Source: Deltaproteobacteria bacterium (GTDB taxonomy: Bacteria; Desulfobacterota; Desulfobaccia; Desulfobaccales; 0-14-0-80-60-11). From it: a DNA stretch of 40,784 nucleotides. The position numbers and the translations under genes are program-made. Positions 5,855 to 35,550 of this stretch are shown piece after piece. Where the stretch lies: the NCBI GenBank assembly GCA_021813445.1, contig JAKAKP010000064.1, positions 1-40,784 on the forward strand, given 5' to 3'. How positions within the stretch are numbered: the first letter of the stretch is position 1; each line of letters starts with the position of its first letter. A model generated the notes under the pieces. It saw nothing but the letters and a program-made list of their open reading frames with translations, was not told the DNA's origin and made no database searches.

Positions 5855-8527
5855 ATGTTGCGAGCAGTACGCTGGAAGTTTTTCTTTCTTTTTATCCTCA
5901 CCGTGATTGCCATCCTTTTTGTCCTGCCATCTTTTCCCGTGCCCTTACCGCAGTGGTGGCAAAAGCACGTGAGCAAAGGCCTGAACCTGGGTCTGGACCT
6001 GAAGGGCGGCATGCACCTAGTCCTGGAAGTGGATATGGATTCGGCCGTGGCCAACGCCTTGAACCGGGCCGCGCCGGAACTCAAGGATCTGGCGGAAAAG
6101 AAGGGCCTGTCCGTCAAGGTGGGCGAAGTCGCCAAAGAGTCGATTCCCCTCACCCTGCTTAATGCTGACGAGCAGTCCCCTCTGCAACATCTGTTAAAGG
6201 AAGAATTCCCCCATTTGCAGGTCGAGGGTCCCCGCCGGCAGGATGGGTCTTTGGTCTATACCCTGAGCCTAAAGCCCGAAGAGCTCAAGCGCCTCAAGGA
6301 ACAGACCCTGAACCAGAGCCTGGAGGTCATGCGCAACCGCATCGACCAGTTCGGGGTCACCGAACCGGTCATCGTCCGCCAGGGCTCCGATCAGATTGTG
6401 GTGCAGCTGCCGGGCATCAAGGACCCCCAGCGGGCCATGGACTTGATCGGCAGAACCGCCCAGCTGGAGTTCAAACTGGTGGACGACCAGACCAAGATCA
6501 ACCTGCCGGAGCTGATCGACCAGGCCCTGAAGGATGGCAAGCTGAAACCCGGTTATACCAGGGAGCAGCTCAATCAGGCCCTGGCCGACAAGATCCCCTC
6601 CGACGACGAGATCTATATTGAAAAGAGTATTGACCGGGAAAACGGCCGCCTGGCGAGCAAACCCCTGCTCCTGAAAAAAAAGGTCCTCCTCACCGGTGAC
6701 GCGGTCAAGGATGCGGCGGTGCGCATCGGCAATTATAACGAGCCGTACGTCTCCCTGGGCTTCAACCGCCGGGGAGGCCAGGAGTTTGCGCGCATCACTG
6801 GGGAAAATGTCAAGCGCCGCCTGGCCATCATCCTGGACGGCGTGGTGCGCTCCGCGCCGGTGATCCAGGAGCGCATCGGCGGCGGCCAGGCCCAGATCAC
6901 CGGCTCCTATACCCCGGATGAGGCCCATGACCTGGCCATCGTGCTCCGGGCCGGGGCCCTGCCGGCCACGGTCAAGATCGTCCAGAACATCACCGTGGGA
7001 CCCACCCTGGGCGCGGACTCCATCCATAAAGGCTGGATTTCCGGCCTCCTGGGCACCCTCCTGGTGATGGCCTTCATGCTCTTCTACTACCGCTTCTCCG
7101 GGGTGGTGGCCAACTATGCCCTGGTTTTGAACGTCATCATGCTTCTGGGGGCTCTGTCGCTCCTGAACGCTACCCTGACTTTGCCGGGTATCGCCGGTAT
7201 CATCCTCTCCATCGGCATGGCCGTGGATTCCAACGTCCTGATATATGAACGCATGCGGGAGGAATTCCACGCCGGCAAGCCCCTCAAGGCCGGGGTGGAC
7301 GGGGGCTATGACAAGGCCTTCTGGACCATCATCGACTCCCACGTCACCACCCTGATCACCGCCTGCGCCCTCTTCCTTTTCGGCACCGGCCCCATCAAGG
7401 GCTTCGCGGTGACCTTGAGCCTGGGCGTCGTCCTCAACCTCTTCACCGCCCTCTTCGGCACCCGGGTGGTCTACGACTGGGTGATACTGAAGCGCTGGCT
7501 GAAGAAGCTCAGCTTCTTCGAATTCTTCAAACAACCCAATATCGATTTTATCAGCTTCCGGCGCTACGCCTTCATCTTCTCCGGGATTCTCTGCATCCTG
7601 GGGCTGGTGGCCTTTGTGCAACTGAGCCGGGGCTACGGCAACCTGGGCGTGGAGTTCTCCAGCGGCGCCATGGTGCAGTTCAGCGCCAAACAGGCCTTCA
7701 CCGTGGGCCAGGTGCGCCAGGCCCTGGAAAAGGAAGGCTGGGGCCACGCCGAGATTCAACCCGTGGAAAGCGGCCACGGCTTGATGATCAAGGTCAAAAA
7801 GTCCCAGGAGACCGTGGGGCAGATGGCGGACAAACTGGCCGCCATTCTCAACCAGAGCCTGCCCGCCAATCACTTCACCGTGGCCTCCACCGCGGAGATC
7901 GGCGCGTCCATCAGCCAGGACCTCCGCAACAAGGCGATCATCGCCATCGCCATCTCCATGCTGGGGATTATCGTCTACCTGGCCTGGCGCTTTGAGTTGA
8001 TCTTCGGCATCGGCGCGGCCGCGGCCACCTTCCATGACGTCCTGGCGGTGCTGGGCATCTTCTGGCTGCTGCATAAGGAGATCACCCTGCTGGTGGTCAC
8101 CGCACTCCTCACCCTGGCGGGCTATTCCCTCACCGATACGGTGGTGGTCTTCGACCGCATCCGGGAGAACCTCGCCCGGAAACGGGGCAAGCTGGGAGAC
8201 ATCATCAACTTAAGCGTCAACGAAGTGCTGTCCCGAACCATCGTCACCAGCAGCACCGTCTTCCTGGTGGTGCTGGCCCTGTACTTCTTCGGCGGCGTGG
8301 TTTTACAGGACTTCGCCCTGGCCATGATCATGGGGGTGCTGGTGGGCACCTATTCTTCGGTCTTCGTGGCCAGCCCCATTGTCTACGCCTTCCGCAAGGA
8401 ATCGAAAAGAGTGGTGGTGAAACGGGAAAAAGTGGTGGAAATGTCCGAAGCCAAACAGCGGCGGGAAGAGAAGAAGGAAAAGAAAGCCCCCAAGGCCGCG
8501 GGCAAGAAGAGGGGCGGGAAGAAGTAA
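5855..8527 (+). CDS. secDF: Fused protein translocase subunit SecDF
   Basis: One 890-residue frame contains both halves of the SecD/SecF translocase. Residues 1-560 are SecD: first membrane helix, GLDLKGGMHLVLEVD, a periplasmic P1-type region, then a helix cluster with SIGMAVDSNVLIYERMREE. From about 565 (NIDFISFRRYAFIFSGILC) SecF begins, with its own LTDTVVVFDRIREN motif and a Lys/Glu-rich cytoplasmic tail. The complex uses the proton or sodium gradient to pull exported proteins through SecYEG. Most proteobacteria encode two separate proteins, so the fusion is notable. The ATG has GGGAG about 9 bases upstream. No yajC is visible beside it. Confidence 0.94.
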   Translation: MLRAVRWKFFFLFILTVIAILFVLPSFPVPLPQWWQKHVSKGLNLGLDLKGGMHLVLEVDMDSAVANALNRAAPELKDLAEKKGLSVKVGEVAKESIPLTLLNADEQSPLQHLLKEEFPHLQVEGPRRQDGSLVYTLSLKPEELKRLKEQTLNQSLEVMRNRIDQFGVTEPVIVRQGSDQIVVQLPGIKDPQRAMDLIGRTAQLEFKLVDDQTKINLPELIDQALKDGKLKPGYTREQLNQALADKIPSDDEIYIEKSIDRENGRLASKPLLLKKKVLLTGDAVKDAAVRIGNYNEPYVSLGFNRRGGQEFARITGENVKRRLAIILDGVVRSAPVIQERIGGGQAQITGSYTPDEAHDLAIVLRAGALPATVKIVQNITVGPTLGADSIHKGWISGLLGTLLVMAFMLFYYRFSGVVANYALVLNVIMLLGALSLLNATLTLPGIAGIILSIGMAVDSNVLIYERMREEFHAGKPLKAGVDGGYDKAFWTIIDSHVTTLITACALFLFGTGPIKGFAVTLSLGVVLNLFTALFGTRVVYDWVILKRWLKKLSFFEFFKQPNIDFISFRRYAFIFSGILCILGLVAFVQLSRGYGNLGVEFSSGAMVQFSAKQAFTVGQVRQALEKEGWGHAEIQPVESGHGLMIKVKKSQETVGQMADKLAAILNQSLPANHFTVASTAEIGASISQDLRNKAIIAIAISMLGIIVYLAWRFELIFGIGAAAATFHDVLAVLGIFWLLHKEITLLVVTALLTLAGYSLTDTVVVFDRIRENLARKRGKLGDIINLSVNEVLSRTIVTSSTVFLVVLALYFFGGVVLQDFALAMIMGVLVGTYSSVFVASPIVYAFRKESKRVVVKREKVVEMSEAKQRREEKKEKKAPKAAGKKRGGKK

Positions 8528-9057: not shown

Positions 9058-9948
<891 letters not shown>

Positions 9949-10018
9949 GACCGCGTCCCTTTCCCTGGGCTAGATTGGGAGTACCGTTCTTTTCCGAGGC
10001 AGCCCAAATCCCCCTAAA

Positions 10019-10039
10019 TCCCCCTTTTTTAAAGGGGGA
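10019..10039. repeat. TCCCCCTTT..AAAGGGGGA palindromic repeat
   Basis: Perfect 9-bp arms surround a 3-base centre, between purQ and the Cache-domain gene. Related elements occur at 24993-25079 and 30288-30370. Confidence 0.7.
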
Positions 10040-10103
10040 CTTTGACCCATCTTGGGACAAGGGTAGAGGGGATTTCGTTCATGACATGAGAAGGGAGGAA
10101 GCG

Positions 10104-10559
10104 GTGAAAAAACTATCTGCCCTGATAGCTATTTTCGTTCTGGCCGTGGGTGTGCACGCAGCCCTGGCCGCGGAGAAAGGCACCAAAGAGGAGGCCGTGG
10201 CCATGGTGAAAAAGGCGGTGGCTTACCTCAAGGCCAACGGCCGGGAAAAGGCCTTTAAGGAGTTTGACAATCCCCACGGCCAATTCGTGGACCGGGACCT
10301 CTATGTCTTTGTGGGCGATATGGCGGGCCGGTGCCTGGCTCACGCCACCATGCCCCAGTTGGTGGGCAAGAACATGATGGAAGTCCAGGACCCGGAAGGC
10401 CGCTTCATCACCAAGGAACGCCTGAAAATGCTGCAGACAAAAAATTCGGGCTGGCAGACTTATAAATACCTGAATCCGAAAACCAAGAAGGTGGAAACCA
10501 AATCCACCTATATGGAACGGGTGGGGGACCTCTATATCGGCGTGGGGGTTTATCAGTAA
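10104..10559 (+). CDS. Exported single Cache domain protein
   Basis: I choose GTG 10104, which has GGGAGGA just upstream; this gives 151 residues starting with a clean signal peptide (MKKLSALIAIFVLAVGVHAALA). The mature part matches a single Cache domain: KAVAYLKANGREKAFKEFD, DRDLYVFVGDMAGRCLAHA, QLVGKN, SGWQTYKY, then KSTYMERVGDLYIGVGVY. Cache domains are extracytoplasmic small-ligand binders, usually part of chemoreceptors or histidine kinases. Here there is no membrane anchor or output domain, so it is probably a free periplasmic binding protein. Confidence 0.82.
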   Translation: MKKLSALIAIFVLAVGVHAALAAEKGTKEEAVAMVKKAVAYLKANGREKAFKEFDNPHGQFVDRDLYVFVGDMAGRCLAHATMPQLVGKNMMEVQDPEGRFITKERLKMLQTKNSGWQTYKYLNPKTKKVETKSTYMERVGDLYIGVGVYQ

Positions 10560-12361: not shown

Positions 12362-13558
12362 TTACTTTTCCAGCAAACGGGGCAGCAAATCCGCGGCTTG
12401 CTCCAGGAGCAGCCCGGTTTCCCGGGCGTCGTTTTCGGTGTAGAACTGGAGCCGGTCGCCTTTGGCCCGGGAGTCATAGAGGATGAAGGGCACCGGCTCC
12501 GGGGTATGGGTGCGCTTGACCAGGGGCGTCAGGTGGTCGCACAGGAGCAGGACCCGATGGTCCCCCAAGGCCTGCAGGCCCGTCATCAGGGGCCCCACCA
12601 CCTTGGCGTCGAAGTCCTCGATGGCCTGGAGCTTTAATTTTAACTCGCCGCTATGGCCCGCTTCGTCCGGGGCCTCCACATGGATGAAGACCAGGTCCAT
12701 CTCTTTAAGCGCGTCCAGGGCCGCAGCCACTTTGCCCGCGTAGTTGGTGTCCAGATAGCCGGTGGCCCCGGGCACCATAATGGGTTTCAGGCCCGCATAG
12801 AGGCCGATGCCCCGGATCAGGTCCACCGCGGAGATCACCGCGCCGGTGAGGCCGAAGCGCTCTTTTAAGGTGGGCAGTTGCGGGGGCCGCCCCTGGCCCC
12901 AGAGCCAGATGGAGGTGGCGGGTCTTTGCCACTGGGCCACCCGGCGGCGGTTGACTTCCTGGTCCTGGAGCACGGCCCAGGATTCCCGGATGAGCTCCCA
13001 CAGGGGGCGCTCCGGCCCGTCCCATTCCATGAGCTTGCTGACATCGTGGCCGGTCCAATCGTGGGGCGGATAGGTGCGCCAATCAGAGCGTCCTTCCCGC
13101 CACACCAGGAGGTGGCGGTAGCTAACCCCCGGGAAGAAGCGGCGGCCGTCTTGGCCCAGGGCCGCGTCCAGGGCGAGGATGATTTCTTTGGCCTCTTCAC
13201 TGCTGATGTGCCCCGCGGCGTAATCCTCCATGACCAGGCCCACTTCATCCTGGCGCAGGGTCACGAGGTTGCAGCGGAAGGCCACTTCATCCGGCTGCAG
13301 GGCCACGCCCAGGGCCGCGGCCTCCAAAGGCGCCCGGCCCGTGTGGTAGCGGGCCGGGTCATAGCCCATGATGGCCAGGTTGGCGATGTCGCTGCCCGGG
13401 TCCATGCCCGGGGGGATGGTGCGGGCGCGGCCCAGCTCCCCTTGCCGGGCCAGTTCGTCCAGATTTGGGGTGGCCGCGGCTTCCAGGGGGGTGCGCCGGT
13501 CCAGCTCGGCCACAGGGTAATCCCCCATGCCGTCGCCCACGAGAATGATATATTTCAT
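12362..13558 (-). CDS. apgM: Cofactor-independent phosphoglycerate mutase family protein (proposed homoserine kinase)
   Basis: The 398-residue protein begins MKYIILVGDGMGDYP and contains TPLEAAATPNLDELARQG, PGSDIANLAIMGYDP and YHTGRAPLEAAALG, then HVEAPDEAGHSG and LLCDHLTP near the C-terminus. These are metal-binding and substrate motifs of the alkaline-phosphatase-superfamily apgM group. Proteins of about 400 residues beginning this way match a subfamily proposed to act as homoserine kinase (TIGR02535) in genomes without ThrB. Homoserine dehydrogenase lies 3.3 kb upstream on the same strand, which supports that reading. Phosphoglycerate mutase activity is the alternative. The ribosome binding site is weak. 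Confidence 0.85.
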   Translation of the reverse strand: MKYIILVGDGMGDYPVAELDRRTPLEAAATPNLDELARQGELGRARTIPPGMDPGSDIANLAIMGYDPARYHTGRAPLEAAALGVALQPDEVAFRCNLVTLRQDEVGLVMEDYAAGHISSEEAKEIILALDAALGQDGRRFFPGVSYRHLLVWREGRSDWRTYPPHDWTGHDVSKLMEWDGPERPLWELIRESWAVLQDQEVNRRRVAQWQRPATSIWLWGQGRPPQLPTLKERFGLTGAVISAVDLIRGIGLYAGLKPIMVPGATGYLDTNYAGKVAAALDALKEMDLVFIHVEAPDEAGHSGELKLKLQAIEDFDAKVVGPLMTGLQALGDHRVLLLCDHLTPLVKRTHTPEPVPFILYDSRAKGDRLQFYTENDARETGLLLEQAADLLPRLLEK

Positions 13559-32156: not shown

Positions 32157-32175
32157 TTTTTTTTGGGGGGGGGGG
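32157..32175. repeat. T8-G11 homopolymer junction
   Basis: Eight T residues are followed by eleven G residues between nifH and tRNA-Lys. Such a tract is prone to slippage in the cell and in sequencing. The surrounding 32176-32290 is GC-rich and without a recognised gene. Confidence 0.8.
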
Positions 32176-32290
32176 AATGGGCAGGGCAACCCGGGGGCAA
32201 CGGCCGGGGATAAATTTACTGGGGAGCCGCGCCTTTAGCGGTCTGGAGGGCCATCTGGGGCCGGGGTGGCTCCCAGGGGGCGAAACTAAT

Positions 32291-32329: not shown

Positions 32330-32341
32330 AATGTCCGCTGG

Positions 32342-32414
32342 TGGGCCGTCGGGGGCTCGAACCCCAAACCTAGTGATTAAGAGTCACTTGCTCTACCAAT
32401 TGAGCTAACGGCCC
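32342..32414 (-). tRNA. tRNA-Lys (anticodon CUU)
   Basis: On the minus strand the 73-base sequence begins GGGCCGTTAGCTCAATTGG and folds as a cloverleaf. The acceptor GGGCCGT pairs with ACGGCCC, the D-loop contains TTGGTAGAGC, the anticodon stem AGTGA/TCACT encloses CTCTTAA with anticodon CTT, and the T-arm holds GGTTCGAGCCCC. The discriminator is A and CCA is not encoded. A terminator follows. Confidence 0.97.
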
Positions 32415-32557: not shown

Positions 32558-33388
32558 CTATGTTTGGGAAGATAATTTTCGGAAAATCAAGAGAGGGGTA
32601 ACTCCAAGGTGATTGTCCGGTCTCCCGAACATGGATCGAATAGTGTTGGCGGCATCGATCATGCCCTGAATTTGAGGAGTAAGATTTGCTGGTAATTCCT
32701 GTTCAGGAGGGCCAACCACGTCGACAATTCCCAAAAGATACCAATTCCCAGTCAATGTTGGTCCCATCTTCAAAGTAATATTACCTGGTAGCTCCCGTAG
32801 ATTTTCAGTTCGCAAGGCTCCCCATGCTGTCAACGATGAGGTTTGCATGATAATCTGAAGACCCCAAGGAACTAATTCTGAAATTAGTTTAATGATATTA
32901 GAAGTAAATTCGTGAACCTTTCGCTCTTCCTTTTCCTGCTGTTTTCGGTGTTTCTTTTCAGTATGTGTCATTCCTCCTACAGTAGGCATAGGGAAATTAG
33001 GTATTATATTAATAATATGACGATAAGCCTCAAAATTTAAAATGCTGATGCGCCCATTTAAAAGAACTAAATTGCCCGGATGAGCCTGAGAAACATCAGT
33101 TTGGATGAAATTATTTTGTACCAGCCCTTGCAAAACGTCAGAAAGAATTAAGTCATGAGGATTTAAGCGGTCGACTCTTGACTCAGATTCTTTTTGTTCG
33201 GAGCGTCTTGTGGTACCAAATGAAGAAGGACCAAGCCTGAGATCAGTGCCAGAGGTAATAGTTTCTGAAGCGACCTGCTCGATAACGCTTAGAAGGCCGG
33301 AAAAAAGCTGGGAATAAAGAGAGTTTACTCGGTCAAAATCAATATATAGGAAATCAAACAGGGTCGCCTTGCGTTCTTCTGATTCCAC
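32558..33388 (-). CDS. Protein of unknown function, possibly DUF6414-like
   Basis: The 276-residue protein begins MESEERKATLFDFLYIDFDR and continues VNSLYSQLFSGL. The early FLY-D-DR-SLYSQ pattern, a central LLNGRISIL strand and a late LTGNWYLLGIVDVV strand resemble the uncharacterised DUF6414 family; I give this only as a resemblance. A charged helix (about 145-165) lies in the middle. There is no signal peptide or catalytic motif that I recognise. The gene is visibly AT-richer than its neighbours and stands beside a tRNA, suggesting acquired DNA. It overlaps the upstream small gene by 35 bases. Confidence 0.68.
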   Translation of the reverse strand: MESEERKATLFDFLYIDFDRVNSLYSQLFSGLLSVIEQVASETITSGTDLRLGPSSFGTTRRSEQKESESRVDRLNPHDLILSDVLQGLVQNNFIQTDVSQAHPGNLVLLNGRISILNFEAYRHIINIIPNFPMPTVGGMTHTEKKHRKQQEKEERKVHEFTSNIIKLISELVPWGLQIIMQTSSLTAWGALRTENLRELPGNITLKMGPTLTGNWYLLGIVDVVGPPEQELPANLTPQIQGMIDAANTIRSMFGRPDNHLGVTPLLIFRKLSSQT

Positions 33389-33572
33389 TATCGACTTTAC
33401 CTCTCACTTTTGATTCCATTTCACGGAATTTTTTTTGATGGGCCTTGATATCTTCAAAGAGAGATTGAGAAGCCTTCATTACCCCTTGGAGATGAGGCGC
33501 GGCTTTCTCAGTGCCAGCTTCGATAGACCGGTCAAGATCATCAAGAATTTCTAATAATTGATCTTTTGCCAT
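33354..33572 (-). CDS. Small coiled-coil protein, partner of the downstream unknown gene
   Basis: I start at ATG 33572 with GGAG about 6 bases upstream, giving 72 residues (MAKDQLLEILDDLDRSIEAG...). It is almost entirely helical and charged, with heptad-like spacing, and has no known domain. Its last 35 bases overlap the start of the 276-residue gene in another frame, so the pair is translationally coupled and probably forms a complex. Base composition is AT-rich like its partner. Confidence 0.62.
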   Translation of the reverse strand: MAKDQLLEILDDLDRSIEAGTEKAAPHLQGVMKASQSLFEDIKAHQKKFREMESKVRGKVDSGIRRTQGDPV

Positions 33573-33755
33573 AATTTCTCCAAATCTTGTTATAAATATA
33601 ATCGTCATATTCCAGGTTTTCAAGAATATTTTCTAAAAAGCCCAGGTTCGCAGCGTTAGAGCGTTTTCCCACTGAGAACCGGAACTACACCAGCTTAAAT
33701 GACTTGGTCTTGACCCCGAGGGATGCGCGGGTAAAATGTTGCGCAAGAGCTTCTT

Positions 33756-35231
33756 ATGAATGAAAAAGAAGACATTGGCGTAATTCCCGGCGAGGGTATA
33801 AAAATTCCTGGCGGCGCCGAGACCGCGGGCAAATGGACCGTCATGGCCATGGTGGATATCGGCGCGTTTATGGCCACCCTGGACGCCAGCATCGTCAACA
33901 TCTCCCTGCCCAAAATCAGCCTGTATTTCAATGTTCCCCTCAGCGGCCTGGTGGAATGGGTGATCATCGCTTACCTCATCGTTATTGTCAGCCTCCTGCT
34001 GATCCTGGGGCGGCTGTCGGACATGCTGGGGCAAAAGCTCCTGTGGGTGTCGGGGCTGGCCGTCTTTACCCTCGGCTCGGCGCTGTGCGGCGCGGCTCCG
34101 TCCCTTTTGTCCCTGGTGCTTTTTCGGGCTCTGCAAGGAATCGGCGGGGCGATGCTCATGGCCATCGGCCCGGCCATGATCACCCGGGCCTTCCCGGTGG
34201 GCGAACGCGGCCGGGCCCTGGGCCTGCTGGGGGTGGTGGTGGCCGCGGGCACGAGCGCCGGCCCGGCCCTGGGGGGCATCATCACCCAGGTCTTTAGCTG
34301 GCGCTGGATCTTTTATCTCAATATACCCATCGGCCTCATCGGCGTGATCGCCACCCTGCGTCTGCTTACCGAAAGGATGCGGCCCAGCTGGGGCGGGCAG
34401 CGCTTTGACCTGTGGGGCGCCATCTTGCTGGCCGCGGGCCTCTGCTCGCTGATGCTGGGTCTGAGCTTCGGCCAGGAATGGGGGTGGCATTCCTACCCGA
34501 TCCTGGGGCTGTTTGCCGGGTCTTTGGGGCTGCTGGCGGCCTTCTGCATCAATGAGAGGTATGTGGCCCAGCCCCTGGTCGACCTTTCCCTTTTCCGCAG
34601 CCGTCTCTTCTCCGCGGCCATTGCCAGCAGCTTTCTCTGTTTTCTCGCCCTGTTCGCGGTGATGTTTCTGATGCCCTTCTACCTGGAGGAACTGCTGGCC
34701 CTTGCCCCCCATGAGGCGGGTCTGCTGATGACTGTGGTCCCCCTCACCCTGTCGGTGGTGGCTCCCATCAGCGGCTGGCTCTCCGACCGCTTTGGCTCCC
34801 AGGTTCTCAGTTCCCTGGGGCTGGCCATCAGTTGCGTGGGCCTCTGGTTTCTCAGCCAGCTGCCGGCCCGGGTTTCCAACTTTGACATCGTCTGGCCGCT
34901 GGTTATCACCGGCCTGGGGCAAGGCCTGTTCCAGGCCCCGAACAGCAACGCCATCATGAGTGCGGTGCCGCCGCTGCGGTTGGGCATTGCCTCCAGTTTT
35001 ATGGCCACGGTGCGCGTCTTGGGCCAGGCCTCCAGCGTGGCCCTCTCCGGCGCCATTTTTACCATGTTGGGCGGCGCCCGGGCCGGCGCGGCCCTGGTCC
35101 AGAAATTGGACCTGCCCCTGGCGGCCCTGGAAGCCACTTTCCTGAACGCCTTTCGCCTGGCCATGCTCACCTGCATGGCCATCGCCGCGGTGGGGGTGTT
35201 TACCTCGCTGTTGCGCGGTAAAAAAAGCTGA
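33756..35231 (+). CDS. MFS drug exporter, DHA2 family (EmrB/QacA type)
   Basis: The 491-residue protein has about 14 membrane helices. DHA2 motifs are visible: LDASIVNISLPKI in helix 1 (motif D1), LGRLSDMLGQK (motif A) after helix 2, RALQGIGGAMLMAIGPAMI (motif B region) and GPALGGIITQVFSWRWIFYLNIPIG (motif C and following). Such pumps export drugs or other amphipathic compounds with protons. It lacks the neighbouring EmrA-type adaptor or TetR regulator often seen. It is divergent from the AT-rich gene pair with a 183-base gap. Confidence 0.92.
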   Translation: MNEKEDIGVIPGEGIKIPGGAETAGKWTVMAMVDIGAFMATLDASIVNISLPKISLYFNVPLSGLVEWVIIAYLIVIVSLLLILGRLSDMLGQKLLWVSGLAVFTLGSALCGAAPSLLSLVLFRALQGIGGAMLMAIGPAMITRAFPVGERGRALGLLGVVVAAGTSAGPALGGIITQVFSWRWIFYLNIPIGLIGVIATLRLLTERMRPSWGGQRFDLWGAILLAAGLCSLMLGLSFGQEWGWHSYPILGLFAGSLGLLAAFCINERYVAQPLVDLSLFRSRLFSAAIASSFLCFLALFAVMFLMPFYLEELLALAPHEAGLLMTVVPLTLSVVAPISGWLSDRFGSQVLSSLGLAISCVGLWFLSQLPARVSNFDIVWPLVITGLGQGLFQAPNSNAIMSAVPPLRLGIASSFMATVRVLGQASSVALSGAIFTMLGGARAGAALVQKLDLPLAALEATFLNAFRLAMLTCMAIAAVGVFTSLLRGKKS

Positions 35232-35291
35232 GGGCTGTCGGCAGGTGTCGGAGAATGCCATACCAGGAATTTTTTTGTTCTCCCTCCCACC

Positions 35292-35384
35292 GTGGCTTAT
35301 CATTACCCACAAGTTTTTTATTCGGTGGCGCAGCCTTTCCAGGCTGCGCCGAAAAATTGCGCAGGCTGGAAAGCCTGCGCCACC
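35292..35384. repeat. About 90-bp dispersed element, copy 2
   Basis: GGCTTATCATTACCCACAAG is followed by the paired palindrome arms, with GGTGGCGCAGCCT at the left and AGGCTGGAAAGCCTGCGCCACC at the right. It parallels 21820-21905 over its whole length. The 319-base gap 35232-35550 holds no gene. Confidence 0.78.
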
Positions 35385-35550
35385 AAGACTCCCCTAAATC
35401 AATTACTTCCTAACTTGGGGGTAATGCCTAGCACCGTGGGGAGGGGGAGATTCAATCTGACTTTATCTTGTGGTTCAGACCAAGGAACCTTTTCTAACGC
35501 TTGCTTGCAAGCCGGAATCAAATAAACTGGAGAAAAGTTTGGAGAGAGAA

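Follow-up and report, generated by a model that had tools for sequence, protein, structure and literature searches.

A coupled DUF6414 gene pair of phage origin, probably an exclusion cassette, stands alone on a bacterial chromosome

Two overlapping genes in a contig of a nitrogen-fixing Deltaproteobacteria bacterium, within the 40,784-nucleotide stretch of DNA that we analyzed (hereafter, the window), are of phage origin and are foreign to the lineage of their host. They encode a small helical protein and a larger protein of the family DUF6414, and nearly all of the 74 related loci that we gathered outside the window were in phages or prophages. We propose that the pair is a phage accessory cassette (a 'moron', or lysogenic-conversion cassette) that now stands alone on a bacterial chromosome and that would act in the lysogen to exclude other phages, a reading to which, the defence role included, we assign a probability of about 0.6. 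What is new is a prophage accessory cassette built from uncharacterized families, which is probably an exclusion system. The locus contains the following features:

33595 to 33623, minus strand: sigma-70-like promoter (TTGAAA-17-TATATT) ahead of the pair, a consensus match only
33354 to 33572, minus strand: small partner gene, an ORF of 72 amino acids from ATG (89 if an upstream TTG is used)
33400 to 33405, minus strand: Shine-Dalgarno-like GAGAGG, within the small gene and ahead of the GTG start of the DUF6414 gene
33354 to 33388, minus strand: dual-coded overlap of 35 nucleotides, 30 of them the same as in the phage sister locus L035
32558 to 33388, minus strand: DUF6414 / phrog_9699 gene, an ORF of 276 amino acids from GTG, with matches to PF19952 and phrog_9699
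32339 to 32414, minus strand: neighboring tRNA-Lys(CTT), the sole match to this tRNA stretch in the genome
32301 to 32329, minus strand: terminator-like hairpin, 3′ of the tRNA-Lys gene

An earlier note on this DNA had described a 72-residue coiled-coil gene that overlaps a 276-residue DUF6414 gene by 35 nucleotides, and the ORFs, the Pfam match and the predicted helix agreed with it in every detail. Its remark that the composition of the pair differs from that of its surroundings also held: GC content was 0.41–0.44 in 1-kb windows around the pair versus 0.58 for the whole window, and at third codon positions it was 0.36 in the DUF6414 gene versus 0.53–0.86 in the other window ORFs listed. A glycine that is nearly invariant in the small protein (Gly63 in the window) coincides with the position of the DUF6414 start codon, and purine-rich AG or GGAG stretches were found at the equivalent place, within the small gene, in the phage loci that we inspected. 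Judging from this layout, translation of the DUF6414 gene is very likely coupled to that of the small gene through the overlap and the Shine-Dalgarno-like stretch. The promoter call is weak, because the region contained seven sigma-70-like sites when 4.0 were expected.

On one side, the pair is flanked by a nif cluster that includes nifH and PII genes; on the other, by genes that encode an MFS transporter, a protein with a beta-lactamase fold and a DAHP synthase/prephenate dehydratase. In these flanks, which we read as nif cluster, MFS transporter and housekeeping genes, we recognized none of the genes for phage structure or integration, and because the window copy is thus not carried by a phage or prophage we call it an orphan copy. 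Nor did the flanks resemble the defence island that the earlier note had proposed to look for: the ten flanking genes look like housekeeping or nif genes, and PADLOC returned no meaningful match to their proteins, the sole match being to residues 3–38 of nifH, its nucleotide-binding start. The MFS transporter gene beside the pair (33756–35231) may have been acquired too, its best counterpart in nine related genomes having 38% identity. Positions 35279–35470 of the window are a dispersed repeat, pieces of which match dozens of sites (~75–100% identity) in genomes of the genus and family, and at 32160–32177, between the AT-rich region upstream of nifH and the tRNA gene, about eleven G follow a run of T, a spot that is possibly assembly-sensitive.

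The 276-residue protein matched PF19952 (DUF6414) with an E value of 1.9e-13 and 51.2 bits, which passes the gathering cut-off of 25, and matched phrog_9699 more strongly still (E 2.1e-42 over residues 2–273); Pfam contained no other domain for it up to an E value of 10. The 72-residue protein matched no family significantly, including phrog_15141 and phrog_29688, the PHROGs of the phage partners. No toxin family, whether nuclease, kinase or other, was recognized in the window proteins, and the defence databases yielded no meaningful match to them, with no PADLOC family for the DUF6414 protein up to an E value of 10. The best value from the defence databases was a match of the small protein to AbiEi over 31 residues (E 0.0043), which we discarded as most likely a chance match between helices. 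Our literature search for DUF6414 and PF19952 found no paper, and there neither protein had a described function.

AlphaFold modeled the small protein as one long, charged helix spanning residues 2–67 (mean pLDDT 75.9). Its C-terminal end reads SGIRRTQGDPV, versus SGVRRTQGDPV in L035, and contains the family motif G.R.T. The model of the DUF6414 protein had a mean pLDDT of 71.6 and a pTM of 0.65, with very low confidence at residues 32–75. For residues ~86–275, nearly all of the 50 VIA rows were OB-fold proteins (Ten1, RPA, MCM, AsnRS and PriB), with an rmsd of ~2.4–4 over 70–97 residues for most and Z scores of 5.0–6.5, values that are weak (being under 8) and that can arise from a common arrangement alone. 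Foldseek returned no significant match to the model (E ~0.05 at best), nor did a viral structure library, and a search of the PDB by sequence gave nothing convincing. From the predicted fold, it is a reasonable guess that the DUF6414 protein binds nucleic acid through its OB-like region.

Relatives found by tblastn were in phages of Moraxella, Nitratiruptor, Bordetella and Acinetobacter and in one Klebsiella prophage. Scans that used single sequences returned nothing from either collection, and a scan with a six-sequence alignment succeeded, recovering 64 IMG/VR loci and three bacterial contigs; E. coli prophages also carry the pair. Nothing was found on plasmids when the two other DUF6414 branches served as queries. 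We examined 46 loci, the window included, and wherever the frame was intact and upstream DNA was available (44 loci) a small ORF preceded the DUF6414 gene, although these 44 include many close kin and fall into 22 distinct groups rather than representing independent events. The small ORFs had 58–93 codons, were helical, ended inside the DUF6414 gene and shared a C-terminal motif of the type NGAR.TKHRFTI; the overlap was 35–38 nucleotides in most, and the few shorter overlaps (8–14 nucleotides) stemmed mainly from the choice of start codon. In the Bordetella phages the small ORF was present but unannotated. The DUF6414 gene of the Klebsiella prophage (L034, 11513–12348) is annotated as two overlapping ORFs and appears frame-broken. 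Because the overlapping pair was found in 43 other phage or prophage loci, the overlap is more than a chance coincidence of two reading frames; the check on homology thus confirmed a two-gene unit that is kept throughout the phage branch.

In the DUF6414 tree (midpoint-rooted for drawing only), the window pair was nested inside the phage branch, its sister being L035 (UViG 3300022554_000219) with support of 100/99. Identity between the two was 56% for the DUF6414 protein and 50% for the partner, and DNA similarity was limited to the pair. The L035 contig also carries genes for a DNA clamp, ParB-like proteins and terminase, and there the pair is antiparallel to its neighbors. Its terminase large subunit seems to be split into pieces more than 2 kb apart with other ORFs between them, one at 9421–10317 (N-terminal-like by inspection, with no family) and one at 12569–13042 (matching terminase families). 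For DUF6414, the comparison of window and L035 gave a dN of 0.35 and a dS of 2.2, which is near saturation, for a dN/dS of ~0.16, indicating that the protein was kept under constraint in both lines. L005 and L006, bacterial DUF6414 proteins of the same phylum that are ~70 residues longer than that of the window, branched outside the phage group, and DUF6414 genes outside the phage branch (L005, L006 and L008) seemed to have no small partner.

The vertical inheritance in a fixed position that the earlier note had set against its reading does not describe this pair, which is linked to phages and absent from the relatives of its host. The PF19952 profile found nothing in 58 of these relatives, six of them in the same genus, and the absence marks the window pair as an acquired, phage-derived orphan. 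An evenly drawn sample of 395 genomes from the phylum contained only three others that the profile matched. The region around nifH was matched well in five of eight close genomes, none of which had the pair. We sought the exact empty site in the genus, but it could not be defined because nifH, the tRNA gene and the genes that flank the tRNA in G001 are on separate contigs of the window genome, and because the MFS gene lacks a close counterpart. Within the host genome, PF19952 matched the window locus and a second, split copy on contig C142. A frame change splits this second gene (L008; G000:C142, 8576–9476), which lacks a small partner and sits beside what appear by inspection to be three type II toxin-antitoxin pairs; it is downstream of a gene for a TIR-domain protein (PADLOC TIR-TM, E 2e-73), with 5 kb of N between them.

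The places in which phages carry the pair bear most directly on its function. A CI-like repressor gene was directly upstream on the same strand in 26 of the 64 loci with enough upstream sequence, or, counting distinct groups, in 8 of the 20 that could be judged out of 22 in all (~40%). Other sites were among tail genes (Moraxella and Acinetobacter) and beside an integrase gene (L082), and the many copies among tail or late genes, away from a repressor, count against exclusion. In the E. coli prophages L128 (strain TUM9868, pair at 5934–6915) and L129 (strain EC7, pair at 6001–7003) the order is cI, small gene, DUF6414 gene, kil, gam, bet, exo, integrase and tRNA-Thr, so that the pair occupies the slot between cI and kil, the place held by rexAB in lambda. 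A query running from cI to gam matched 3181 E. coli genomes in part and 7 over at least 80% of its length. Prophages with 90–97% identical flanks had breakpoints that coincided with, or came within a few nucleotides of, the same two positions of L129 (~5850 and exactly 7036), and between them (L132, L133, L134 and L135) carried in place of the pair either nothing or an operon that matched a PADLOC PDC family, PDC families being candidate defence systems only: PDC-M66 (a HipA-like kinase with DUF3037), PDC-M11 (a two-gene operon with an ASCH protein) or PDC-M63 (a DUF6932 operon). Similarly, Moraxella phage Mcat17 carries the pair (L029:6241–7865), and Mcat14 (L131) lacks exactly that segment, the flanking bases being adjacent. 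The pair was AT-richer than its surroundings in nine of nine loci tested. The swapped or empty slot, the clean presence and absence, and the AT-richness together indicate a swappable accessory cassette. The interval between cI and N is a known hotspot of mosaic diversity, in which both bstA, a defence gene, and rexAB, which act in abortive infection, are found (PMC8585504). The E. coli EC7 prophage that carries the pair also has, downstream of its replication gene P, a SIR2-domain gene (L129:446–2377) with PADLOC matches to the Argonaute-associated SIR2 and PDC-S65 families. The earlier note's idea of a mobile defence module stands as far as the pair is a co-inherited unit, sporadic and linked to phages, with phage relatives often placed where candidate defence operons are otherwise found; the defence itself we infer.

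If the pair is an exclusion cassette, a lysogen would express it with little else of the phage, as it does rexAB and bstA, and the pair would then protect both host and prophage from other phages. The DUF6414 protein, in which an OB-fold-like barrel and a long hairpin of helices are predicted, would conjecturally bind nucleic acid or the replication or recombination complex of an infecting phage. The partner, a small helical protein translated immediately ahead of DUF6414 and coupled to it, might hold DUF6414 as an oligomer or, alternatively, might keep it inactive until infection. Because the window copy looks intact and constrained, it probably still acts in its host as a stand-alone exclusion module. 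A broader version of this idea, which we offer tentatively and rate at somewhat below even odds, is that DUF6414 and its translationally coupled helical partner represent a widespread, undescribed class of prophage exclusion systems, found across phages of Gammaproteobacteria, Betaproteobacteria, Campylobacterota and the host's phylum. These systems would use an OB-fold-like protein to recognize the nucleic acid or replication complexes of phages, and the window pair would be a captured copy that serves a bacterium as a free-standing immunity cassette.

The same position beside the repressor could instead mean that the pair tunes the phage's own switch between lysogeny and lytic growth, for example as an antirepressor or a CI stability factor, the copy on the chromosome being a mere vestige. 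It is common for phage regulators to be small and helical, and a repressor adjoins the pair in the 8 of 20 groups noted above. However, other groups carry the pair away from the immunity region, within tail genes or next to an integrase gene, and a switch factor would not be expected there; nor would the content of the E. coli slot be expected to be swapped or lost while cI and kil/gam remain 90–97% identical; and a dN/dS of ~0.16, even with dS near saturation, is unlike that of a useless remnant. We consider this explanation unlikely. The overlap of two genes with the small one first, and the fixed coupling between them, would also suit a toxin-antitoxin-like addiction pair, in which the small helical protein neutralizes the DUF6414 protein and the pair stabilizes the element that carries it, and the frame-split copy on C142 does sit among apparent type II toxin-antitoxin genes. 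But no toxin family, nuclease and kinase families among them, was recognized, and the partnerless DUF6414 genes outside the phage branch are not what such a pair would predict. This reading too strikes us as improbable, and it does not exclude ours, being compatible with defence by abortive infection. An ordinary cellular stress gene pair, spread by horizontal transfer and unrelated to phage defence, seems less plausible again: DUF6414 does occur outside phages (in the Haloferax volcanii control as well as in L005 and L006), but the window pair branches within phage sequences rather than beside L005 and L006, and its partner gene is known here from the phage branch only. Finally, the adjoining tRNA-Lys gene and the foreign composition of the pair had suggested to the earlier note a genomic island inserted into the tRNA's 3′ end, an explanation that we regard as extremely improbable because the geometry contradicts it: the tRNA gene is ~143 nucleotides past the end of the DUF6414 gene on the same strand, which places the pair on its 5′ side, the 3′ end recurs nowhere in the window (a search allowing up to 3 mismatches found a single match), a search for flanking repeats found none, no integrase was recognized among the flanking genes, ~50 bp upstream of the tRNA are still common to a relative, and the relatives' tRNA genes have other surroundings.

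The cassette is a recurrent occupant of the post-repressor slot of rexAB and bstA that has no convincing match in the defence databases and for which we found no paper. Its presence in E. coli prophages makes it easy to test in the laboratory. Should it prove protective, two families, the phage branch of DUF6414 and the small partner, would gain a function, and the window copy would exemplify a prophage defence cassette that stands alone on a chromosome. Comparison of the E. coli prophages also reveals one slot, with nearly fixed breakpoints, in which candidate defence operons are swapped, and a systematic survey of this slot should yield more candidate defence systems.

Among known systems, RexA–RexB of lambda resembles the phage relatives of the window pair in its two genes, which come immediately downstream of cI, on the strand of cI and before the early genes. 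It differs in that the DUF6414 pair has its small gene first, overlapping the large one. RexB is a membrane ion-channel partner, and the DUF6414 partner is predicted to be one long charged helix. We also considered and rejected homology to RexA (hhalign probability 0.2%, E 0.35). BstA, which has a KilA-N domain architecture, occupies the same slot downstream of cI as do the phage relatives of the pair, but it is a single gene with a DNA self-immunity element inside bstA, whereas the DUF6414 cassette has two genes, and its domain architecture is absent from the large window protein, for which Pfam lists only DUF6414 up to an E value of 10. About a fifth of BstA homologs are putatively prophage-independent (PMC8585504). 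The PDC-M66, PDC-M11 and PDC-M63 systems share with the pair both the two-gene operon and the cI–kil slot of E. coli prophages, but their protein families are unrelated to it. The Dodola system contains DolA, which we take to be a DUF6414-containing protein. The DolA profile weakly matched the broken copy on C142 (E 0.026) and not the window protein, and no gene for a ClpB-like DolB adjoins the window pair, whose neighbors are nifH and the tRNA gene on one side and the MFS transporter gene on the other; at an E value of 0.001 the profile matched nothing in the host genome. Dodola was likewise missing from the matches in 297 genomes of the phylum, but the profile picked up none of the controls either, so the system may be present there all the same. 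With respect to Pfam DUF6414 as a whole, the window protein scores above the gathering threshold, and L005 and L006 are longer, partnerless and on a separate branch. The phage cassette of phrog_9699 and its partner is the system that the window pair matches, in gene order, in overlap and in the similarity of its large protein to phrog_9699 (E 2.1e-42), with its partner resembling the phage partners (phrog_15141 and phrog_29688) in C-terminal motif, helical nature and position only; the phage cassette sits in a phage or prophage, whereas the window copy is on a bacterial chromosome.
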